Assembly: GCF_021134715.1 (NCBI RefSeq)
Contig: NC_060025.1
Location: forward strand, 2,480,001 to 2,544,000
Length of the DNA stretch: 64,000 bases
Direction of reading: 5' to 3'
Origin: Daphnia pulex
Lineage: Eukaryota; Arthropoda; Branchiopoda; Diplostraca; Daphniidae
Positions 25,412 to 37,100 of this stretch are shown piece after piece. Under the pieces are notes generated by a model. That model did not search any database. It was not told the DNA's origin and saw only the letters and a list, made by a program, of their open reading frames with translations. The translations under genes were made by a program, and so were the position numbers. Each line of letters begins with the position of its first letter. Position 1 is the stretch's first letter.

Positions 25412-26719
25412 TGTTGGTTAAATTTTTTATTGTGTTCCTATTACAGATTTGCTCGAGATTTGACTTGTTGATCAGTGACGACTGACGTGTCTGTTGGCTC
25501 ACTTGGCTGTCGTTCAGCAATGCATCCTTTCGTATCCTTGAGGAATGGGGGGGAGGGGGGGTTGAGCCTGCTCCAGCTACACAACCAGCATCATTCGACT
25601 ACATAGCCGACTTGTACTACCCCAGCTGGTTAAAGTTTCAACCCAGATTTAAGCAAATAAAAATTCACCGTTCTAATTTTGTAAGTATATCTAAAATACT
25701 TATCTGCACCAACGACAATGTTTCCAACTTCACGGACGGACATTTAAAATATTTAAAATTCAATGGAGTTCTACTGTCGGGCATGAAAATAATTTTAAAA
25801 TCGTTGGAGTTCTTTTGTCGGACATGAAAATAATTAAAACAATTATTGGAGTTCTAAAGTCGCGTAGAAGAGTTCTATTGTCGGGTATTTTCAATAATAT
25901 TTTAAAAAGGAGTTCTTATGTCTTTTGAGTTCTACTGTCAGCAAACCGTGCCTCCTACTACCCCTGCTCTCGAACACAGCACAAAATTTTGATCTTCAAA
26001 TTGTTTGGCTGGATGATCCCATGGTGGTTTCTTGTTGAAAAAGAAGATTATAATGATTTTCGTAAGGAAAATATTGCGTGAGTATCGGCTTTTTTAGGTC
26101 TTCGCTTGTTATTGCTGTTCGTTCCCACCTCATCTTTCTCGAATGAAGGGCACACTATTTGAGACTCTAGGATCTGGAGGTAAACATCTGGAGTAAAACT
26201 GTAAAAATCAGATTGAAGTATTGAGAAATCTGGTTAATCGGCTCATCAATCAAAATAGAACCGGTCTATGGCACGCCAAAAGGGTTTTCAAAAAAAGGTC
26301 GCCACAATGCCATCTAGCGGTCAAATATAGAACTACATGCAAAATTCCCTTTTCTTTCCCTTTTCATCATTTCATCTGAGTCAACAGTCAACGTTAAGCA
26401 GCTAGCTTCGAAAATTACCAATGAATTCATAAACTCGAGTGATTTCGTCTGTAACTTGTCGGTGATGTGTTCTATTCCGTGCACATGTTGGATAACCTTA
26501 ATGTTTTCATCAACTTACAGTCAGAGGAAACGTGAAAGTCGTGTACCGTCAACTATTTTGTAGAAACTCATTGTATTCTACTGAATTTGTCATCGTAATG
26601 ATACAGGTAAAAACCAACACTAGCTTTATTTCATGCTAAAACATGTATTCTTCTCATGTTTCATTAGGATTAATCTTAATTATTGGTTGTTTCTATTGAA
26701 CTTGATAGATCACCGACCC
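25412..26719. other. Left flank of the 8.4-kb TIR element
   Basis: No intact gene. Several stretches (ATCATTCGACTACATAGCC near 25590 and AAAATATTGCGTGAGTAT near 26070) recur in related form right of the element near 35757 and 35887. A cluster of degenerate ATAATTTTAAAA / GTTCTACTGTCGG repeats lies at 25740-25940. Confidence 0.5.
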
Positions 26720-26726
26720 CAACATG

Positions 26727-27115
26727 TATGGCATGCCGTGGGGACAATCTGTTTCCTTAAAATTGGAAGCTTGAATTTTAAAAAATACTTATTTAAATAT
26801 TAAAGTAAATGCTTAATTACATTCAATTCTCTTATCTTTCTATTAACTTTTAATGTGTTTAAGTCTTAAATTTAAAAATAAAATTTTCAATGTTGAACGC
26901 TTAACGGCTAAAGTAGAAGTCTATCGCTGAAATTTGAAGTCTCAAGTATGTGAATTCTGTGTCTACTAGCGCCACCTATCAGTTAAAATACATACTCAAA
27001 AGGGCAATAGCTGTATTTAGGTATTGTTCACTATTCTGCGGAATGTCGCGGGAGCACAAATCGAACAAGTCACTTCAAACTTTGATTTCGTTTACCGTCG
27101 TAAAATTACGAGTTC
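26727..27115. repeat. Left TIR of the 8.4-kb element
   Basis: Inverted copy of 34718-35105. It differs by a handful of substitutions and a one-base indel (AAGTCACTTC versus AAGTCCTTC). The tip contains the palindrome GGCATGCC. Confidence 0.92.
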
Positions 27116-27398
27116 TTTGACGATTTTTACGAGAATTTGAATTGAAATTTGATGCAGGCGTTGTAAGTAACGTTGTTAGTCAAAACAATGTTACTCGTGT
27201 CTCGTTTTAAAAAGAACATTTTATAAGACAATATCGCCAGAGGATATCCCTTGTCTTTTTTGTTTTAATGTTGAATTTGCTTCCTCTTCCAAGAGATAAT
27301 GATGCTTCTACTACAGTCTATAGCGAACCCTTTGGAAAAATTCTTTAGTAGTTTTATGGATGCATTCCACCGTGGGTGAAAGTAAAATTTCCCAAATC

Positions 27399-29037
27399 AT
27401 GAAAATCCTAGTCGTTAGTCTTCTTCTCTTCCTTCAGGTAAAAATCGATTGATTATTATTATATTTTGTCTCTCGTCAAAAATGTGAATTGAAATCCTTG
27501 AAATCCAACAAGGGTATTCAATCAGCGCCATGGTCTTCGTCTTGTCCTCACGAATGCTGGTGTCACGAATCCTACTTGGCCAGCATAGTCGACGAATGGC
27601 ATCTACTCAATAAAATGCAGCCGGATTCATCCACCAGCCCCAATAGCAGCGCCCTTAATGACCTATTATTCCGTGCCGTAATTTGTGTCCAACAACACGA
27701 CATGGAAATTGAAACCCTATTGGCCCGCTTGCCGTCTCAAACCGAGGTTCGTTGGAATACCTATAAATATCCTTCAATAACCGTGTCTAATGAATTTCAA
27801 ATGAATTTTTAATAGGCCATGAAGATTATCCAAGCATCCGACGCACCGGAAATCCGCTTGACGGCCACTCATTTGTCGAAATTTGTCAACTTGAGAGCTC
27901 TGGGTCTCGAAGGATCTCAACAACAGGAGTCTAGTAGTGCGCCATCAATCATTTTACATTCGGATAGCCTCAAATCTTTGATTCAACTTCAATATTTGAG
28001 TCTTGTCAACATGGAATTGCTGGATCAGCCTTCGCCGGAACCGGTCACGGTGGTCGAAATAGCCGACGACGAACAATCAGCCCCTTCACAACGGTTGACG
28101 TATGACGTTCCCGAAGAAATCCTGCCTTACGAAGAGTTCAAAAAGTTGCACCAACAAACGGAACTAAGCGTTCCGTGGAATGGCTTTTCAATGTTGACCC
28201 AACTCGAGTATTTGCTGATCGTCGGTTGCCAGTTGCCGGAAGCTTTTAGCACGGGTCACTCTGGTGCGTTCACGAGTCTGAGTCATCTGAAAGAGTTGAC
28301 CATCCGCACGAGTCAACTGCGAGTGCGGCTGGAAATGGAACCGGGCGATTTAATGGAATTGGAATCCCTTTCGCTAGCGGACAACGAGTTGCTGGAGATC
28401 AAGCCGGGCGAGCTGCAAGGAATGGGCGCACTCCAGCAGCTCGATCTGTCCGGTAATCAGTTGACTCACCTCACCGAAAACTCTTTCCCTTTCCTGCCCG
28501 ATTTGGAATCGCTGGATTTGAGCGACAATCCGCTTTCGACTCTCTACCCAAACACTTTCGCCAACGTCTCGTCCATCCGCCGCCTTTTACTCGGATCTTA
28601 TCGCTGGAAGGAAGGCGAAATCGTCGTCAACCGAGAGCCCTTGGAAGGCATGCAGGTCGTTTCCATGGAGTTTGAACCTGACAGTTTCAACGGATTGGTG
28701 AAATTGCAGGAGCTCTGGATCAGTCAGGGCCCCCCTTGAAGGAAATAAAAGCCTCGATTCAAACTACTTTAAAGATTTGCTTTCCATTTCCGAGTTGCAT
28801 CTACGCGGGCGGATCGTATCGATCGACGCCGACACGTTCAAGGCCAACCGACGACTTCAACATCTCGACTTGAAAAACTGTCAACTCCGCCGCTTGAGCG
28901 TCGACGCTTTCCAATCGTTACGCAAATTGCGCCTTTTAGACCTGTCGTCCAACCAACTGGTCCAGCTTCCGCCGGGCCTGTTCGACCCTGTCGTCTCGTT
29001 AAAAGAATTGTGGCTCAACGGCAACAAGTTGACGACT
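27399..29037 (+). pseudogene. Secreted leucine-rich-repeat protein, truncated and frameshifted
   Basis: Exon 1 (27399-27437) encodes a signal peptide, MKILVVSLLLFLQ. Exon 2 (27513-27746) begins with an LRRNT-like Cys cluster (CPHECWC). Exon 3 starts at 27816. Introns have GT/AG ends and are phase 0. Exon 3 holds about ten LRRs of the LxxLxLxxNxL type (for example LQQLDLSGNQLTHL, LESLDLSDNPL). A run of six C at 28730-28735 shifts the frame to a stop at 28739. With one C fewer the LRRs resume (LRLLDLSSNQLVQLPPGLF) to 29037, where the nested TIR element starts and the protein is cut. The family is extracellular or cell-surface recognition LRR proteins, but the exact orthologue is not identified. 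Coding quality is high, so the shift may be recent or an assembly error. Confidence 0.75.
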
Positions 29038-31750
29038 GACGTAATATTTTGGGGGGAGCAACTCTTTAGGCGTGAAAATGTGTTCACAGCTCAAAGCAGA
29101 GCAATTTTTCCCTTCTGTTTCTTGGCCAGCAATATCGGATGGGGGTCTATTGTTGGTGTTGGTCTCCTGTAACGGAATACGCTGCTTTATTTGAAAATTC
29201 TGAGTTTTTTAAACGATTGTAAATCAAATGAAATCATACTGAAGAAAAGTAAAGACAATGCGCTGCTGATATATATATTTCTTCCTTTTTTTATGTGTGT
29301 AGGGCCAGATCCAATGCTGCTAATTACAACTGATCGAGATATTCGCTTCTTCTCAAAGAGTATGGACTCGTTGTATCAGGCATTTCACAAACGCACGGCG
29401 TCGCAGCTGATTATGAAGATGGGGTCGTCTACTGGAATGAAAAGAGCGAGGGCAAGGCTGGTATTTCCAAATCCATGTTGGATGGATCAGCTTTCCAGTA
29501 CGTTGTTTCGGTTGGTGTGGAGATTGTTGAAGACTTGGTGATCGACTGGGTTGGCAGACACATTTATTTCGCGGACTCCGGCCGGAAGCACATCGTCGTT
29601 TGCGATTTTTATGCTGCCATTTGCAGTGTTGTCATTAGTGGACAACTAGACAAATCTCGTGCCGTGGCCGTCTATCCTGAAGAGGGTTTGCTTTTCTGGT
29701 CTGACTGGAGTTCTAGTTCACACATTGGTTCTGCTGGCATGGATGGATCGCAGCGGACAAACGTAATCACGGCAGACATTATTTGGCCTAATGGATTGGC
29801 TGTGGACGAAACCATTCAACGTATTTATTGGGTAGACGCCAAACTCAATCGCATTGAAAGTTCGCGGATTGATGGATCCGATCGTAAAATCCTTCCCGTT
29901 AAAGTGACCCATCCGTACGCTCTCGATATATTTGAAAACACAATCTTTTGGTGCGATCCTCTGGAGCACGAAGTTCTTTCCGTCAACAAGTTTACCGGCA
30001 AGGATTATAAGGTATTATTTATCTTCAGATTTGCGAGTCAATGATGGCAAGTAAATTCTGAAAATCCAACTTTTCCAGATTTTGATCAAGGAAGCTTCGA
30101 TAACTCCAACTGGCATCCACGTTCATCATCCTTACAAGCAAAGCCATCTCACCAACCCCTGTCGAAACGTGATTTGCAGCCATCTCTGTCTTCTTTCACC
30201 AACCCCTACAAGGTTATAAGTGCGCTTGCCCTGTCGGAATGACTTTGAACAAAGACGGTCGTACCTGCGAGTCTATTTCCGCTCATGAATCTTCCATCGT
30301 CATCGCAACTTACACCGACATCTATCGCATGACTCATCACCAGATTGGCAAGGATTCCGTCTTTCGTCTGCCTACGCGTAACGTGGAATACATCGGTGCA
30401 TTGGCGTACAGCCCCTTAGGCCACTCAATCGTCTACAGCGACATGATTCAGAGGACGATCTACTCGATCCACCTGGATACTTATCGACAGACGGTTCTCT
30501 TCGAAAACGTCGACATGGTCGAGGGATTGGACGTGGATCCCTTCACGGAGAACATTTACTGGACGGAAGTTACTCGGGAAACTGTTGTAGTTGGCCAAAA
30601 GAAACACGATGGTAGTTACGACCGTCTAGTATTGGCCCGAAATCTTAACAGCCCCCAAGGTGTTACCATTGGATCCCAATCCGGCAGGATGTTCATCGTC
30701 GAGGGCCGCATCAGTCACGTCATCAGCGTTTGGCATATGGATGGAACTAACCGACAGGAGTTGGTCAAAGTTCGTAGAATTGTATCGGCGATGGCTTACG
30801 ACGGCAAACATCTACTTCAGCGCCTCCCTGCGAGGTACAATTGAACGGATCGAAGTCAACGGTGAAAATCGAACCATCCTTCGCTCTCATCTGGGCACTC
30901 CGGTTGCCATGGACGTCAGTGCAGATTCCGTCTTTTGGCTGACTCAATCCTCCACTCGCATCAGCTGGTTGAACAAGCAATAAGAGACGAAAACTATGCG
31001 CGGCTTCGTTATCGACGCTTCCGACGACATAAACGTTCAGTATCGTTTGATGTCCGATCGATTTCAACAGTCACGATCATCATTGCTTGGGGGATACTGG
31101 AGGTTGTAGCGACATTTGCGCACCAACACCTGATGGAGTCACTTGCCTATGTCCATTGGGTAAAGTATTGGGAGAAGATAAACACGCATGTACTAAAGCC
31201 GACTGCGTTGGTGTTGAATGGTTTAAATGTCGAACCAGTTGTATTCCCGCCAAGTACCGATGCGATGGGGTCAACGATTGTGCCCTAGGTGAAGATGAGC
31301 TCCAGCGCCGCAACACGACGACAGAAGTAAAGTATTCTTTAAAGGTAGGTAATATAAATTACTTTTTTCTGAAAAAGACCGAGTGATTGTAAGGTGTGAA
31401 AGTGAATGCTTAGATGGATTAGGGCAATAATAGGCGTGGTTAACCGTTCTACAATAAGATGGGTAGGGAGAAGAAATGTCAACACGCACTGACGAGCTCT
31501 CCTTTACCGAAGATTACATCAGCAGCGCATTGTCTTTTCTTCAGTATAATTTCATTTGGTTTACAATCGTTTACAAACTCAGAATTTTCAAATAAAGCAG
31601 CGTATTCCGTTACAGGAGACCAACACCAACAATAGACCCCCCTGCCGATATTGCTGGCCAAGAAACAGAAGGGAAAAATTACTTAGTGCTTCGAGCTGTG
31701 AACACATTATCACGCCTAAAGAAAGAGTTGCTCCCCCAAAATATTACGTC
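29038..31750. mobile_element. Nested 2.7-kb TIR element with LRP fragment
   Basis: Inverted repeats of about 233 bp (29038-29270 and 31518-31750) begin GACGTAATATTTTGGGGG. They differ by small indels (a CTTT and a G-run change) and scattered bases. The flanks ACT (29035-29037) and ACT (31751-31753) suggest a 3-bp target duplication. It is inserted in the LRR coding exon of the larger element. The cargo is LRP exons with frameshifts. No transposase is visible. Confidence 0.75.
29303..31344 (+). pseudogene. LDL-receptor-related protein (LRP) fragment
   Basis: The fragment starts at a splice acceptor (GTGTGTAG, 29302) and ends at a donor (AAAG|GTAGGT, 31344), with one internal intron (30012-30078). 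In order it encodes a YWTD beta-propeller (YEDGVVYWNEK, GLLFWSDWSSS, QRIYWVDAKLNRI), an EGF-like domain (NPCRNVICSHLC, YKCACPVGMTL, CE), a second propeller (NIYWTEVTRE, VEGLDVDPFT), another EGF-like domain (GGCSDICAPTPDGVTCLCP) and an LDL-receptor class A repeat (FKCRTSCIPAKYRCDG). Frameshifts near 29390-29410, 30210 and 30815 and at further points toward 31050 break it. LRPs are endocytic membrane receptors. This piece lacks a start, membrane segment and tail, and is cargo of the nested element. Confidence 0.85.
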
Positions 31751-31753
31751 ACT

Positions 31754-32399
31754 GGTTCTTAATTATTTTTTAAAAATACGTTTTTCTTTGTTCTGAAAAA
31801 TATGTGTAAGATTAAAAACTGAAAGATGACTTTAATGTTATATAATACGAGTGTATTATGAAGAAGCTTTGTTACTTTTGCCACGCAGCGTATAGAATAT
31901 AGAATATCGAAATTTCTCAACACATACACATGTTATGTAAACATTCACTGAAGCGTGGATGCTGCCCGTCTATTGTATAAAATGTTTATGGTTCTGAACG
32001 ATCATCGACAGGTGCGTTGGGTTTGACGACTAATGCGCTTTTCATCTCACCCAAAACATGTTACTTTTAACCAAGAACAAAACTCAAAAAAAGGGATCAA
32101 AACCTTAATTCTAATTTCATTTTGAGAAATTTTGAATTTTTTTTCTAATTTATGAAGTTTCTCTTATTGCGGTGCAGACAAGAGGATAGTGTCATCTCTG
32201 GATCCCAGACGGCGTTGTAAATTCACTTCCAAAAGCAGCACTAGATAGAGCTTTTTGACGATTGTAGTCGTCTGCTTTTCGTGGTTTGTCATTTATCCAC
32301 ATGTCTTTTTCTTCTTCGTGTTTTCAGTAAAACTTTTTTACTTGAAGTCAAAGTTATTACAGATTTTTAAAGTATTTTCAAGTGAAAAAGGAAGGAAGA
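31754..32399. other. Non-coding stretch before the BMS1 copy
   Basis: AT-rich, no domain seen. It may include the captured 5' flank of the BMS1 gene. Confidence 0.5.
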
Positions 32400-34540
32400 A
32401 TGGAGGACCATGTTGATGAAGACAAGAAAAAGGCTCACCGGGAACGCCGTGCTGGTAAACTATTTTGCAGCACACAGTATTTGAAGACTATAGCATTTAA
32501 CGATGGTTGAAAAATTATTAGGGCGCAAAGCGGACAAGAAAAATTCAAGGATCCACACATCCAAGAAATGGATGAGAAAAGCTTTTGCTATCCAGTCATT
32601 AGCCAAGGCTCGGAAACATTTTCACAGGTAAATCGGTTTGGTTCAGCCCAGATCAATCAAATCTTGCATGACATGTCTTTCATAGCTGACCAAAATTTAT
32701 TTCCCACGTTGGTTAGCAATTTCTTATTCTTTTCTTTTTTTTTCAGGGCCCGTAAATGAAAAAGCAGCATATTCCATTACTAGACAGGACTCCCCTAGAA
32801 CCCACACCAATCATGGTAGCCATTGTTGGCCAACCTCAAGTTGGAAAAAATACTCTTCTCCAAGCTCTAATAAAAAACTCTACACGAAAGAATATCACAT
32901 CCATACAGGGGCTCGTTACCATCGTCACGGGTAATGCGTTATCCGTTCATTATTACTAAAATGAATATCAAATAAATTTATTTCTCTGAAAAAATGTAGG
33001 GAAAGAAACGAAGGATGACTTATATGGAATGCAATAACGACATCAACTCGATAGACATCGCTAAAGTGGCTGACCTTGTTCTTGCTTGCTTTTGAGTTTT
33101 GACTGATGCTTCGTTTGGCTTCGAAATGGCAATTTTGAATTTCTCAACATCTGTCAGGTAAGGTCTACTGAAGCATACTCCTCATGTTCAAAATTAATGA
33201 TCTCGAACGACTAACAGGTGCATGGATTTCACCGAGTAATGGGCGTTCTGACTCATTGGACATGTTCAAGAATAACAAGTAGCTGAAAAAACGAAACAAG
33301 TTCTGAAGCACAGATTTTTTAAAGAAGTGTACCAGGGAGCAAAATTGTTTTACCTAACTCCACGGAACCTACCCTAAAAACGAGATCAAGAACCTCGGTC
33401 GCTTCATCTCGGTCATGAAATTCCGACCTCTGCTGTGGAGATTGACTCTTCCTTACGTTTTGGTGGATCGGTTGGAAAACATGACACCTCCCAGTCGATT
33501 GCACGAGAATCTGAAATGCAATCGGGACATTTTCCTTTACGGTTTTGTCCGTGGTGTCCACTTGAGAAATCAATGTCCCGTCCACATCCCAGGCTGTGGT
33601 GATTTCCGCCTTAAATACGTTTCATTTCTTCCTGATCCTTCCCTTTACCGGATAAATTGAAGAAACGTTCGCTGGTCGAAAAGGAGAAGCTTATCTATGC
33701 CCCCATGTCTGGAGTGGGCGGTATCATCTACGACAAGGATTCCATCTACATTGAGCTTGGCAGCAGTCACTCGCACTCCAAGCAGGAAGACCCTACGAAT
33801 CCTAAATCAGAGATGATTTCGTCGCTGATGAAGTTGCAAAGGACGCTGGATGCGCAGATGTGTGAATCGAGAGGAGAAGGACCTACTCTGACGCAGGCGC
33901 ATGACGAGGACGAGGAACTACTAGACGATGACGGCGACGTATCCTATAAACGAGAGATCCGCTGATCCTGTCATTGGGCTGGCGCCGATTTCAAAAAATT
34001 CCGCTCTACTCGATCCACGATCACAACGGACGTCACAGACAGCTCAAATACACGCCAGAGCATATGCACTGTACATCTTTGTTTTGGAATCCATTGACAC
34101 CTCGAGACAAAGGTCTGCTGGCCATTCAGTCCATCTCTCAAGTTCAGGTACAATTCCCTAAATGTGTGATTGAAATTTGTCTTCAAAGTAATTTTCATTG
34201 TGATTTGTTTCTTGCTTTGGCATAGTCTGGATTTAGGCTGGATTTCGATTTGGACAAGTCGACTCAGATTGTCAAGAAACTCAAATTAGTCGACACGCCG
34301 TTACAGATTTAACGCAAAACGGCCTTCATCTAGGGCATGTTCTCGTCGACCCTGGAAATGGACAAATTCGATGTAGCATTCATCCGCAGAGTTTCCGGCA
34401 TTCGCGGTCAGATTTTAAAAAGCCATCGGCAGTCCGGAAGGATCGTTCCGTGCCACTTTTGAAGAGAAAATCAAACTTAGCGGCAAATGCCGAAATGTTG
34501 TATATATTTTGAAGTTGATGGCGTTCCGCCTGATGCCGAT
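32400..34540 (+). pseudogene. BMS1: BMS1 ribosome-biogenesis GTPase, broken copy
   Basis: BMS1 is a nucleolar GTPase needed for 40S subunit maturation. Recognisable blocks: exon 1 32400-32454 (basic N-terminus), exon 2 32522-32627 (KAFAIQSLAKARKHF), the G domain from 32756 (HIPLLDRTPLEPTPIMVAIV, then a P-loop GQPQVGKNT), DASFGFEM near 33110, MKFRPLLWRLTLPY, LKCNRDIFLYGFVRG, KEKLIYAPMSGVGGIIYDKD and an acidic stretch to ~33945. It then jumps directly to the C-terminal [19 protein letters not shown] and [10 protein letters not shown], and on to KKLKLVDTPLQI and RRVSGIRGQILK. Several hundred middle residues are missing. Stops and frameshifts (32756, ~33090, 34310 and others) are frequent. The P-loop has GKNT where the family has GKST. 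Introns with GT/AG ends remain, so the copy came from genomic DNA, not mRNA. Confidence 0.9.
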
Positions 34541-34717
34541 TGTGTGTGACTACTTGTATCTTCAATGGAGACGTGACAAACGGAATACACTTTCAATTCC
34601 CGACTATTTTTCGTCGTATCTTTATCTTCAATCTGATGTGCAATTTACCATTTGAAATACGTTCCCATGTTAATAGGTCACACGTTGGGTGCTCGTTTCG
34701 AACTGGCTGGCGAATTA

Positions 34718-35105
34718 GAACTCGTAATTTTACGACGGTAAACGAAATCAAAGTTTGAAGGACTTGTTCGATTTGTGCTCCCGCGACATTCCGCAGAATA
34801 GTGAACAATACCTAAATACAGCTATTGCCCTTTTGAGTATGTATTTTCACTGATAGGTGGCGCTTGTAGACACCGAATTCACATACTTGAGACTTCAAAT
34901 TTCAGCGATAGACTTCTACTTTAGCCGTTTAGCGTTCAACATTGAAAATTTTATTTTTAAATTTAAGACTTAAACACATTAAAAGTTAATAGAAAGATAA
35001 GAGAATTGAATGTAATTAAGCATTTACTTTAATATTTAAATAAGTATTTTTTAAAATTTAAGCTTCCAATTTTAAGGAAACAGATTGTCCCCACGGCATG
35101 CCATA
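34718..35105. repeat. Right TIR of the 8.4-kb element
   Basis: Inverted partner of 26727-27115, ending CCACGGCATGCCATA, followed by the 7-bp duplication CAACATG. Confidence 0.92.
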
Positions 35106-35112
35106 CAACATG

Positions 35113-36583
35113 GACTCTCATTCCATCTTCTAGAGAATCTTTGATAACTGATTGATGGTTTCATGTGTAAGTTCACTTGTGATGTTACTGAACTTTATTA
35201 ATTGCAGTCTAATATGAATGTTTGTTTTATTTACAGGTTTCTAAATTGGCATGACTGACTTTATGAGAAGTTATTTCCTTTCAAGAAAAAGGACTTACAG
35301 TCAACAAAATTCCTTGTTTGCTAACCCGTTATTGGCTGCTACCCTTGAATCTCCCTATTTGTCAACAACAAAAAAAGAGGTTAAATATTGTGATCATGCT
35401 TTCATCATTGTAAGTTGTGTTTACATTGAATTTAGAGAAGTTGTCATACTAATAGCAATTTTAACGATTGTTTGGTTTCTTAATTAAATGTTGCCTATAA
35501 CACCAGATATGGGGCATCTGGTTATCCCTCCAAAATATGGCAATGGCCACACGTTGAACGCGGATCATTCGTTCTGTCATCGAACTTGACTCATTCCATC
35601 TTCTGGATTGCTTAGGAAAGCTGATTGGTGTTACCTGTGTAACTTCATTGTCATTTCACTGAATTAAAAATTTTTTTACATTTTGTTTCTTGATTTAAGC
35701 ATTTAGGTAATGACCGAGAAGATGCGGCCTACATGAACATCATTTAGGCGGCCAACATCATTTGACTACCCAACCGGCTTCTACTACCCTGCTCTCAACA
35801 TATCACGGAGTTTTACCCTTTAGATTTTTGGCTGTTCGCGATGTGTGATGGCGTTTCCTTGGACGATATGATGATTTTGGCGAGAAAAATATTGCGTGAG
35901 TATATACTTAAAACTGTTTAATTATTCCTTTACTTATTTTTAAAATATTTTTTACAATTTACTTTACAGGTTCTAACCTTCAGGTTCCTAAATTTGCATG
36001 ACAGACTTTATGAAAAGTAATGTTCTTTCAAGAAAGTGAACAAGGTCCCTAGTTTGCTAACCCAATGGCTGCTATTCTTGAATCTCCCTATTAAGCTCCT
36101 TACACAGTCCCTCTTGATTTGAGGTATTGCTTTTTGTCACTACATGACTTCAATCTTATTGAAAATTATTGTCATCCAAATAAATGTTCATTCTGCTTAC
36201 AGGGTAATCCTTCGCTACTGATCATGGACTCCATTGGTGAAACTGAAAACTGACGAGAGAATGCTGTAATCCAAGACTGAAAAATTGTGTAGTTAGATTA
36301 AATTACATGTGCATTTCTGGGCTCCCTTCTTTTCTGTGGCCCCGTTTCCCTATCTAACCACTAACCAACGCCCGCCGGTGGTCACTGGTCACTCACCCGC
36401 TGTGAACCCAGGAGGAGGGGAGGGCTCTGGTCGAACGGGAACTTGGAAGGCGCATGATCTGAGCGTCATGAGTCTAACCAGGAAGCCTAGTAGTGACTAA
36501 TCGCTCCCCAGTAAAACTTGCCTCGCACTCTTCTCTCCTCTTCCATTTCCAGGTAATCTCCCTGGATCTACGCCGACACTGCA
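35113..36583. repeat. Degenerate duplicated segments
   Basis: ACTCATTCCATCTTCT recurs at ~35120 and ~35590, and AGGTTTCTAAATTGGCATGACTG / AGGTTCCTAAATTTGCATGACAG at ~35236 and ~35981. This indicates an old tandem duplication of roughly 0.5-0.75 kb. Frames such as SYFLSRKRTYSQQNS are open in one copy and broken in the other. No function recognised. Confidence 0.5.
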
Positions 36584-37100
36584 TGTGCGAGTTTTAGCAA
36601 GCAATCCGCCACCCAATTTGACAAAAAGTGATAGTTTGTTTTCACGGAAATTGCGTCAGACGGTTGAAAAATTTCTAGTTCAACAATCTCATGTAGAAAT
36701 TAGCATCTAGTCTACTGGTGCAAATTGCGATTCTTTAAGCTTGATTAATTTAGGTGATGTGTTAAAAGCTATTGTGGGTAGCTAAAAAATTGAACTAATT
36801 CGCTTTTCATTTTGAAGAGAGATCACAAGAAAATCCAAAAACAACAAAGTGATCTAAAACCAAAATATTCAGAAAAAGTGGATTAGTTCAATATTTTAGC
36901 TACCCACAATAGCTTTCAACATATCACCTAAATTAATCAAGCTTAAAGAATCGGAATTTGCACCAGTAGACTAGATGCTAATTTTTACATGAGATTTTTG
37001 AACTAGAAATTTTTTTACCGTCTGACGCAATTTCCGTGAAAACAAACTATCACTTTTTGTCAAATTGGGTGACTGATTGCTTTCTAAAAAGCCTCGCACA
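36584..37100. mobile_element. 517-bp foldback (MITE-like) element
   Basis: Nearly its whole length is an inverted repeat. TGTGCGAG (36584) pairs with CTCGCACA (37100), then CACCCAATTTGACAAAAAG, TTTCACGGAAATTGCGTCAGA and TTAAGCTTGATTAATTTAGG arms pair around a ~100-nt centre near 36840. It has no coding frame. No clear target duplication was found. Confidence 0.8.

Follow-up and report, generated by a model that had tools for sequence, protein, structure and literature searches.

A DNA element of 8.4 kb, at positions 26727-35105 of the 64,000-nucleotide stretch of Daphnia pulex DNA analysed here (the window), is bounded by long terminal inverted repeats (TIRs) and flanked on both sides by the sequence CAACATG. 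The evidence supports its reading as a gene-capturing, non-autonomous TIR transposon (Pack-TIR): its TIRs are paired, its copies have differing target duplications, its load consists of pieces of host genes whose parents lie elsewhere and have no TIR match in the stretches fetched, and no transposase domain is seen in the window copy. Taking all observations jointly, the best explanation, to which we assign a probability of about 0.88, is a multicopy Pack-TIR moved by a DDE transposase from elsewhere, with a load that was assembled stepwise, was altered by exchange in the copy on contig C10 and is carried passively.

An inverted-repeat search of the window identified two pairs of arms, 26725-27071/34761-35107 (347 nucleotides, 99% identical) and 27073-27116/34717-34760 (44 nucleotides, 100% identical), which together define TIRs at 26727-27116 and 34717-35105. 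The left TIR, on the forward strand, is 390 bp long and starts with TATGGCATGCCGTGGGGACAAT; the right TIR, on the reverse strand, is 389 bp long. An alignment of their first 388 bp shows 5 differences in 387 compared positions and one additional gap column, and the termini of the element are TATGGCATGCC. A preliminary description of this DNA had reported long TIRs (about 98% identical by eye), a matching 7-bp flank, LRR and BMS1 gene pieces between them and no recognisable transposase. All four points hold: CAACATG is present at 26720-26726 and 35106-35112, domains of both genes are found inside the element, and comparison of the six frames with Pfam, done for the window copy alone of the four, revealed no transposase domain.

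In the assembly of 13 contigs, a search with the TIR located at least four full-length copies, each on a different chromosome, namely C9 (the window copy), C3, C10 and C8, with sizes of 8.4-9.8 kb; the load of the C10 copy is partly different. The other copies for which the preliminary description had proposed to search thus exist, one of them with partly different cargo. Allowing at most three mismatches, the genome has 14 occurrences of the 22-bp TIR end and none of its reversed control; eight of the 14 belong to the four copies, as their ends, and six are relics. Two older TIR relics contain BMS1 3' DNA (L014, 85%; L015, 91%). For the three pairs of copies computed, the LRR plus LDL-receptor load differs at 15/4330, 16/4345 and 39/4332 positions, or 0.35-0.9%. 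Sequence is shared among the copies in mosaic fashion, and in the C10 copy also with a BMS1-like locus. The element had been called fairly young, which fits the spread of the copies (the closest pair is 0.35% apart) but not the BMS1 piece, which is 85% identical to the gene.

The target duplications of the four copies all differ (CAACATG, CACAAT, TAGGGA and CACAAG), being 7 bp long in the window copy and 6 bp in the other three. That of the C3 copy is exactly 6 bp; for the C10 and C8 copies one junction requires three or four extra bases. Two of the four insertion sites sit in dispersed repeats. Joined flanks of the window copy have unbroken matches spanning the junction at 23 places, and those of the C8 copy at 17; in scoring empty sites, 40 of 406 candidates were taken and all 40 matched, all of them belonging to these two copies. 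Twelve were read, with a single target in 11. Among the six relatives of the window flanks that were read, L040 and L041 have GACCCCAACATGGACTCTC with one CAACATG, L042 has one CAGCATG, L043 and L045 have a small insertion after their one CAGCATG, and in L044 AGTATG is present twice. CAACATG therefore behaves as a true target duplication; the single CAACATG predicted for an empty allele is seen in L040 and L041, which are flank-repeat relatives and not an allele. Measured from the empty sites, the duplication is 7 bp for the window copy and 6 bp for the C8 copy.

The four different target duplications and the two sets of empty sites indicate that the finished unit transposed. The portions of Tan et al. 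(PMC8277862) used here infer a transposition-independent origin, by gap filling or segmental duplication, for most animal Pack-TIRs, and by eye one or two bases are common to the element and the source at some load junctions. Such junctions bear on the origin of the load, not on the spread of the unit. For the spread, this kind of origin is contradicted; it could still account for how the load was first put together, and we give it a very slim chance as an explanation of the element.

The load begins with the 5' part of an LRR gene (27147-29038, forward strand), 96% identical over 1892 alignment columns to C9:1547461-1549331. Intron DNA is kept: the frames of the parent lie in separate exons, and a single alignment of the captured DNA, interrupted by small gaps, runs across them. 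The frame is broken by a +1 insertion with respect to the parent that all four copies have in common; differences between copies in this part are spread evenly across codon positions, although there are only 2-8 per pair. With the LRR frame broken in all four copies, this load looks passive, and the load as a whole probably is.

Next to it is a piece of an LDL-receptor/LRP-type gene (29276-31488, forward strand) with YWTD, EGF-like and LDL-A domains (Pfam). It is in two parts, one up to 31329 and one from 31346, and is 91% and 94% identical to a locus on C9 (L024), 90% to one on C11 (L025) and 83% to another on C9 (L030). This piece, between the LRR and BMS1 pieces, was absent from the preliminary description, and so was a second, inner inverted repeat. 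The latter, at about 29038-29273/31515-31751, has arms of about 235 bp and a loop of 2.2 kb and occurs in all four copies. Its left arm (29038-29275, reverse strand) is inverted DNA resembling a BMS1 pseudogene; its right arm (about 31515-31751) lies in a degenerate, similarly BMS1-pseudogene-like stretch (31488-32168, forward strand). This stretch is 73% identical to C5:1484461-1485042 and 79% to C5:1485097-1485182, and from about 31782 to 32093 it is about 60% identical to the BMS1 copies (E-values of 8e-5 and 3e-5).

Because the inner arms closely bracket the LDL-receptor piece, they might be the ends of an inner TIR element that carried this piece and jumped into the outer one. However, outside the four copies the matches listed place the arm at C5:1484461-1484667 alone, where the likeness continues beyond the outer end of the arm, and the C5 place and the element stretch are both weakly like BMS1. 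Moreover, no target duplication is seen on either side of the inner arms, and the LRR piece is not resumed on its right side. Nesting is thus very improbable, and the inner inverted repeat is better read as BMS1-pseudogene DNA that was inverted and now surrounds the LDL-receptor piece.

The captured BMS1 pieces (32187-34623, forward strand) contain the AARP2CN and RIBIOP_C domains (Pfam) and an internal deletion near 33930. Compared with C5:1488134-1493180, they are 85% (32187-33931), 86% (33929-34516) and 84% (34539-34623) identical. The BMS1 reading frame is broken in the window copy; around AARP2CN it is open for 203 amino acids in the C10 copy and 221 in the C8 copy, so these two are less broken at this domain. 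The cargo had been described as already broken, which is borne out for the LRR frame in all four copies and for the BMS1 frame in the window copy. Likely parents, which the preliminary description placed elsewhere in the genome, were found for LRR on C9 and for BMS1 on C5, together with the LDL-receptor-type loci on C9 and C11. In the stretches fetched for the LRR, LDL-receptor-type and BMS1 loci (L023-L030), no TIR match was present among the matches listed.

In the C10 copy the 3' BMS1 part is missing; its place is taken by DNA that matches a BMS1/Kunitz-thyroglobulin-WAP chimera on C5 at 98% identity. The join of this exchange falls within BMS1 homology: the C10 copy is 75-88% identical to BMS1 up to about 32820, after which identity rises to 96-100%, and it shares its BMS1-Kunitz junction with L027. 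The load may have been assembled in steps, with BMS1 acquired before LRR, through template switching or gap repair; the captured BMS1 would later have provided the homology for a strand exchange through which the C10 copy gained the BMS1/Kunitz chimera. The order of capture is based on the identities (85, 90-91 and 96%), which also vary with constraint and with whether the locus found is the true parent. A further proposal, which we put forward tentatively and at less than even odds, is that the element is a self-reinforcing collector of the P-superfamily type, in which captured BMS1 acts as a homology arm: a copy that was broken or excised would be repaired from chromosomal BMS1-like loci and its load thereby replaced or extended, with BMS1 and then, in the C10 copy, with the BMS1/Kunitz chimera.

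A functional load, either an RNA regulating the parent genes (for example a hairpin from the inner inverted repeat) or a chimeric protein, would agree with the presence of the inner repeat (about 235 bp, 2.2-kb loop) in all four copies and with the BMS1 frame, which in C10 and C8 is open over 203-221 amino acids surrounding one domain. The LRR frame broken in every copy, the differences spread evenly, though few, over codon positions, and the inner arms, which resemble the nearest other sequence identified at only 73-74%, make this function improbable.

As for mobility, a DDE transposase encoded elsewhere would act on the TIRs and move the element by cut-and-paste. The genome contains at least 55 MULE transposase matches (five loci read) and at least 77 P-type matches (THAP / TNP-like RNase H; two loci read). 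Among the matches listed, no MULE or P-type match lies within about 32 kb of the 22-bp ends, the nearest being about 33 kb from a relic; the TIR search suggested in the preliminary description thus produced further copies but no autonomous relative beside the 14 end places. Three candidate autonomous copies were rejected. At C9:8767607 (L019), where the 22-bp end is accompanied by long open reading frames, three of these frames and three plus-strand frames gave a cytochrome b5 domain and no transposase. The six frames at C10:5669505 (L020) gave a lone, sub-threshold Tf2-1-like SH3 domain (E = 0.007), and those of the first 4.9 kb at C7:5814751 (L031) gave ABC-transporter domains and no transposase. 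The scan of the relics for a transposase covered these three places in the frames given and, for L014 and L022, selected open reading frames.

MULEs typically have long TIRs and capture genes, and Mutator target duplications are about 8-11 bp long. Movement by a Mutator-type transposase of this genome, which would make the element a Pack-MULE, is in keeping with the number of MULE matches and with the C10 junction, where GTTTAGGGA/ATATAGGGA could form a 9-bp duplication if two mismatches are allowed. Ssk-FB4, a Pack element of the fly, is also assigned to MULE in the portions of PMC8277862 used. Against this, the empty sites give 7 bp (window) and 6 bp (C8), and the C3 duplication is exactly 6 bp, all below the Mutator length; L039, the one MULE with definable ends, has a 9-bp duplication and GGG ends. 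In the five MULE loci read, no sequence comes closer to the 22-bp end than seven mismatches. With duplications of 6-7 bp against 9 bp in L039, the element is probably not a MULE, and we regard a Pack-MULE as unlikely; of the Pack-MULE/Pack-TIR class proposed in the preliminary description, the Pack-TIR part stands and the MULE part probably does not. The same lengths argue mildly for the P superfamily, two elements of which in this genome have duplications of 7 bp (L052) and 8 bp (L053). As first guess for the partner, a Galileo-like transposase of the P superfamily is mildly suggested by the lengths of the target duplications and of the TIRs and by a faint resemblance between the ends of the element (TATGG) and those of L052 (CATGG); Mutator is the second guess. 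Three of the four duplications are 6 bp, below the 7-8 bp of this superfamily.

Helitrons have neither TIRs nor target duplications and are excluded by the presence of both. Dada elements, considered for their 6-7 bp target duplications and known from a water flea, were rejected: as the sections of PMC3706591 used describe them, Dada-U6 and Dada-U1 lack TIRs, which are long here, and insert in snRNA or tRNA genes. Galileo of Drosophila (P superfamily) is described, in the parts of PMC4168063 and PMC2775673 used, with long TIRs, duplications of 7 bp (some of 8 bp) and chimeric copies arising by ectopic exchange, all of which resemble our element. Unlike it, Galileo has the target consensus GTANTAC, and no transposase was seen in the window copy; gene capture was not found in those parts of the Galileo accounts. 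Plant Pack-MULEs share long TIRs, a gene-fragment load and multiple copies with distinct duplications (in part PMC8277862), but the element described here has 6-7 bp duplications, TATGGC ends and an animal host.

Animal Pack-TIRs are another close comparison. According to the portions of Tan et al. 2021 (PMC8277862) used, 100 animal genomes contained four that are multicopy, three in western clawed frog and one in American alligator, in addition to one fly family, Ssk-FB4 in fly populations. These also have TIRs around host DNA, copies with distinct duplications and a parent elsewhere; a frog example holds 291 bp of one gene, whereas the 8.4-9.8 kb of the Daphnia element hold pieces of three host genes and, in one copy, of a fourth as well. 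Neither "Daphnia" nor "crustacea" appears in the main text of that paper, and no account of this element was found in the listed titles and abstract openings on Daphnia DNA transposons, gene capture and Pack-TIRs.

How TIR transposons acquire host DNA is an open question, and multi-site animal examples are few. A single 13-contig assembly here brings together likely parents, load junctions, empty sites for two of the copies, an exchange with a chromosomal locus and four copies that differ in age, making the sequence of events and the route of repair directly testable. Multicopy cases being rare, the element is an unusually clear animal instance of a cut-and-paste transposon capturing genes, and it represents transposon shuffling of pieces of housekeeping and extracellular-protein genes in a crustacean.

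The terminal inverted repeats and the flanking CAACATG claimed in the preliminary description were both borne out. The arms span window positions 26727-27116 and 34717-35105, differing over the first 388 bp at 5 of 387 positions, plus one gap column, and reading of both junctions placed CAACATG on either side of the element (26727-35105). A terminal-repeat search of the genome (133,188,837 bases in 13 contigs) revealed, among the matches listed, at least four full-length elements, named here after their chromosomes: the window copy (C9:2506727-2515105; 8379 bp; target duplication CAACATG, 7 bp), the C3 copy (C3:7141493-7149860; 8368 bp; CACAAT, 6 bp), the C8 copy (C8:5342002-5350475; 8474 bp; CACAAG, 6 bp, with four additional bases, TATG, ahead of the left end) and the C10 copy (C10:7145611-7155368; 9758 bp; TAGGGA, 6 bp, with three additional bases past the right end). 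Further copies had thus been expected correctly, different cargo only in part: the right third of the C10 copy differs, while the rest of the load is of the same kind in all four. Partial relatives include loci on C6 (L013), C3:3563903 (L014), C5:2940781 (L015), C12 (L016, L021), C3 at 7.06 Mb (L017, two ends spaced 1.4 kb), C7 (L018) and C10 at 5.67 Mb (L020), and an end alone at C9:8767607 (L019). With up to three mismatches, the outermost 22 bp occur at 14 places in the genome, eight being ends of the full-length copies; the reversed control gave 0.

Likely parent loci for the LRR and BMS1 pieces were located on C9 and C5, respectively. The LRR piece (27147-29038) is 96% identical to a single LRR locus, C9:1547461-1549331. 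The LDL-receptor-type piece (29276-31488) matches, in two parts, a C9 locus at 91% and 94%, a C11 locus at 90% and a third locus at 83%, and the BMS1 piece (32187-34623) is 84-86% identical to C5:1488134-1493180. Pfam supports the gene identity of each captured piece and detects no transposase domain in six frames of the window copy, in agreement with what had been said of it. The captured LRR stretch runs in one piece, with small gaps, through a parent whose frames sit in separate exons; intron DNA is therefore part of the load. By eye, three of the load junctions displayed seem to share one or two bases with the source, as template switching or microhomology joining might leave. Other BMS1-like DNA lies at C8:6.72-6.81 Mb (L028, L029; 69-83% to the element, with no TIR match in the fetched stretches) and in L022:1426-1974 (C5:2929925-2930473), where BMS1 pieces corresponding to window 32507-32755 (94% to the element) and 34031-34338 (98%) are fused and directly adjoin a 593-residue open frame; farther on, the same strand gives a weak match to PDZ (E 0.008).

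A second, inner pair of inverted copies (~29038-29273 and ~31515-31751) flanks the LDL-receptor-type piece and resembles a nested transposon. Outside the copies, its arm matches only C5:1484461-1484667 among the matches listed, ~3.5 kb from the BMS1 match and also like other BMS1 stretches (63% and 66%). This likeness runs on past the outer end of the arm to window 32168 (73% and 79%), and window ~31782-32093 shows a weak similarity to BMS1 copies (60%, E 8e-5 and 3e-5); the resemblance to a transposon was therefore set aside. We read the inner repeat as probable old BMS1-pseudogene DNA, one part of which would have been copied, inverted, to the opposite flank of the LDL-receptor piece.

For empty sites, flanks joined without the element and without the second target copy were run against the genome, and 40 of 406 candidates were scored. 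All belong to the window copy (23 places) or the C8 copy (17), none to the C3 or C10 copies, and in each the joined flanks align as one piece across the junction. The window and C8 copies therefore lie in dispersed repeats, other members of which have no element there; for the window copy, the repeat flanks are 26567-26726 and 35113-35272. Twelve sites were read, six per copy. Window-copy relatives L040 and L041 carry CCCCAACATGGACTCTC, and L042 carries CCCCAGCATGGACTCTC. In L043 and L045, CCCCAGCATGG stands before a small insertion, and L044 contains two occurrences of AGTATG. Each of the six C8-copy sites carries AGTACACAAGGAATG. The duplications are therefore 7 bp (window copy) and 6 bp (C8 copy), and the anticipated empty site with a single target exists in repeat relatives of the flanks (L040 and L041, for example). 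One member of the repeat hit by the C8 element, L047 (C5:1493585-1493902), lies ~0.4 kb from the BMS1 match. The window holds other repeats: a tandem array at 1-23400 (~7.5-kb units, spacings 7562 and 7526, 300-nt stretches 100% identical), within that region a 2412-nt, 100% complementary inverted pair (5156-7567/12907-15318), and at 36592-37089 a hairpin- or MITE-like 216-nt inverted pair, 94% complementary and 66 nt apart.

An autonomous relative encoding the transposase was not found near the element ends among at least 55 MULE and at least 77 P-type transposase matches in the genome; the nearest listed, a broken P-type, is ~33 kb from the C5 relic. Duplication length (6-7 bp) fits P better than Mutator, though three of the four copies have 6 bp. 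A complete-looking P-type element on C2 (L052:1365-5911) has 34-bp perfect TIRs, CATGG ends, a 7-bp target duplication and an 829-residue frame encoding THAP and RNase H domains; another, L053, has 164-nt TIRs at 97% and an 8-bp duplication. Galileo, of the P superfamily in Drosophila, combines long TIRs with 7-bp, sometimes 8-bp, duplications (PMC4168063, PMC2775673). Mutator, catalogued for D. pulex alongside P-element and other families (Schaack et al., PMC2884549), is a less likely source, in view of the 9-bp duplication of the MULE L039, whose ends are GGG. No clear ends were seen at the other four MULE loci read. Another superfamily is less likely still. We tentatively favour the P superfamily, with a probability of about 0.45.

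The divergent third of the C10 copy begins within BMS1. Up to ~window 32720 the BMS1 part of this copy resembles the element (99-100% to C8, against 75-88% to chromosomal BMS1), and the next ~100 bp are mixed (95% and 78%). Beyond ~32820, identity is 96-100% with BMS1 and 97-100% with L027 (C5:3077049-3084199), a chimera with Kunitz, thyroglobulin and WAP domains. The C10 copy then passes through a BMS1/Kunitz junction identical to that of L027 and stays 98% identical to it, in two pieces, as far as the right TIR. Because L027 has 3.3 kb missing from C10 and its BMS1 part is 97% identical to BMS1, transfer of the chimera from an L027-like locus into C10 is more likely than transfer in the opposite direction. 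The non-BMS1 part of L027 is 91-95% identical to four stretches in C5:1504028-1531537, 11-38 kb from BMS1. L027 joins BMS1 5' DNA to a Kunitz/thyroglobulin/WAP gene; this chimera shares its chromosome with the source cluster, lies ~1.5 Mb from it and has no TIR match. The C8 copy is also mosaic (~33403-33800: 90-94% to the window copy, 98-100% to C10). Exchange within captured homology seems to have altered the load.

All four copies share a +1 insertion in the LRR frame relative to the parent; two further insertions are common to C10 and C8, and C8 has one more. Shared insertions therefore pair window with C3 and C10 with C8. Differences in the LRR and LDL-receptor load number 15/4330 (window/C3), 16/4345 (C10/C8) and 39/4332 (window/C10). 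At 2.30e-9 to 4.53e-9 mutations per site per generation (cited for D. pulex in PMC12926508), each close pair would date back roughly 0.4-0.8 million generations and the deeper split 1-2 million, provided that D. pulex rates apply and with exchange between copies ignored. Between copies, differences in the LRR frame are spread evenly across codon positions, though each pair has only 2-8 of them; between copy and parent, third positions are over-represented (14-15 of 27-31), which is what constraint on the parent would predict. Around AARP2CN, the BMS1 frame is open for 203 residues in C10 and 221 in C8, versus 100 in window and C3. Relics L014 (85%) and L015 (91%) combine the TIR with BMS1 3' DNA, which suggests earlier mobility of a BMS1-bearing ancestor; the LRR piece, 96% identical to its parent, looks younger. 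We only infer this order of capture, since identities depend on constraint too.

The words 'captur' and 'gene fragment' are absent from the main text of Schaack et al. (PMC2884549). Tan et al. (PMC8277862) report 370 Pack-TIRs across 100 animal genomes. Four of these are present in multiple copies, three in frog and one in alligator, and the fly family Ssk-FB4 is given as an additional case. The Daphnia element is of the same kind as the Pack-TIRs described there but larger, carrying pieces of three genes and, in one copy, of a fourth.
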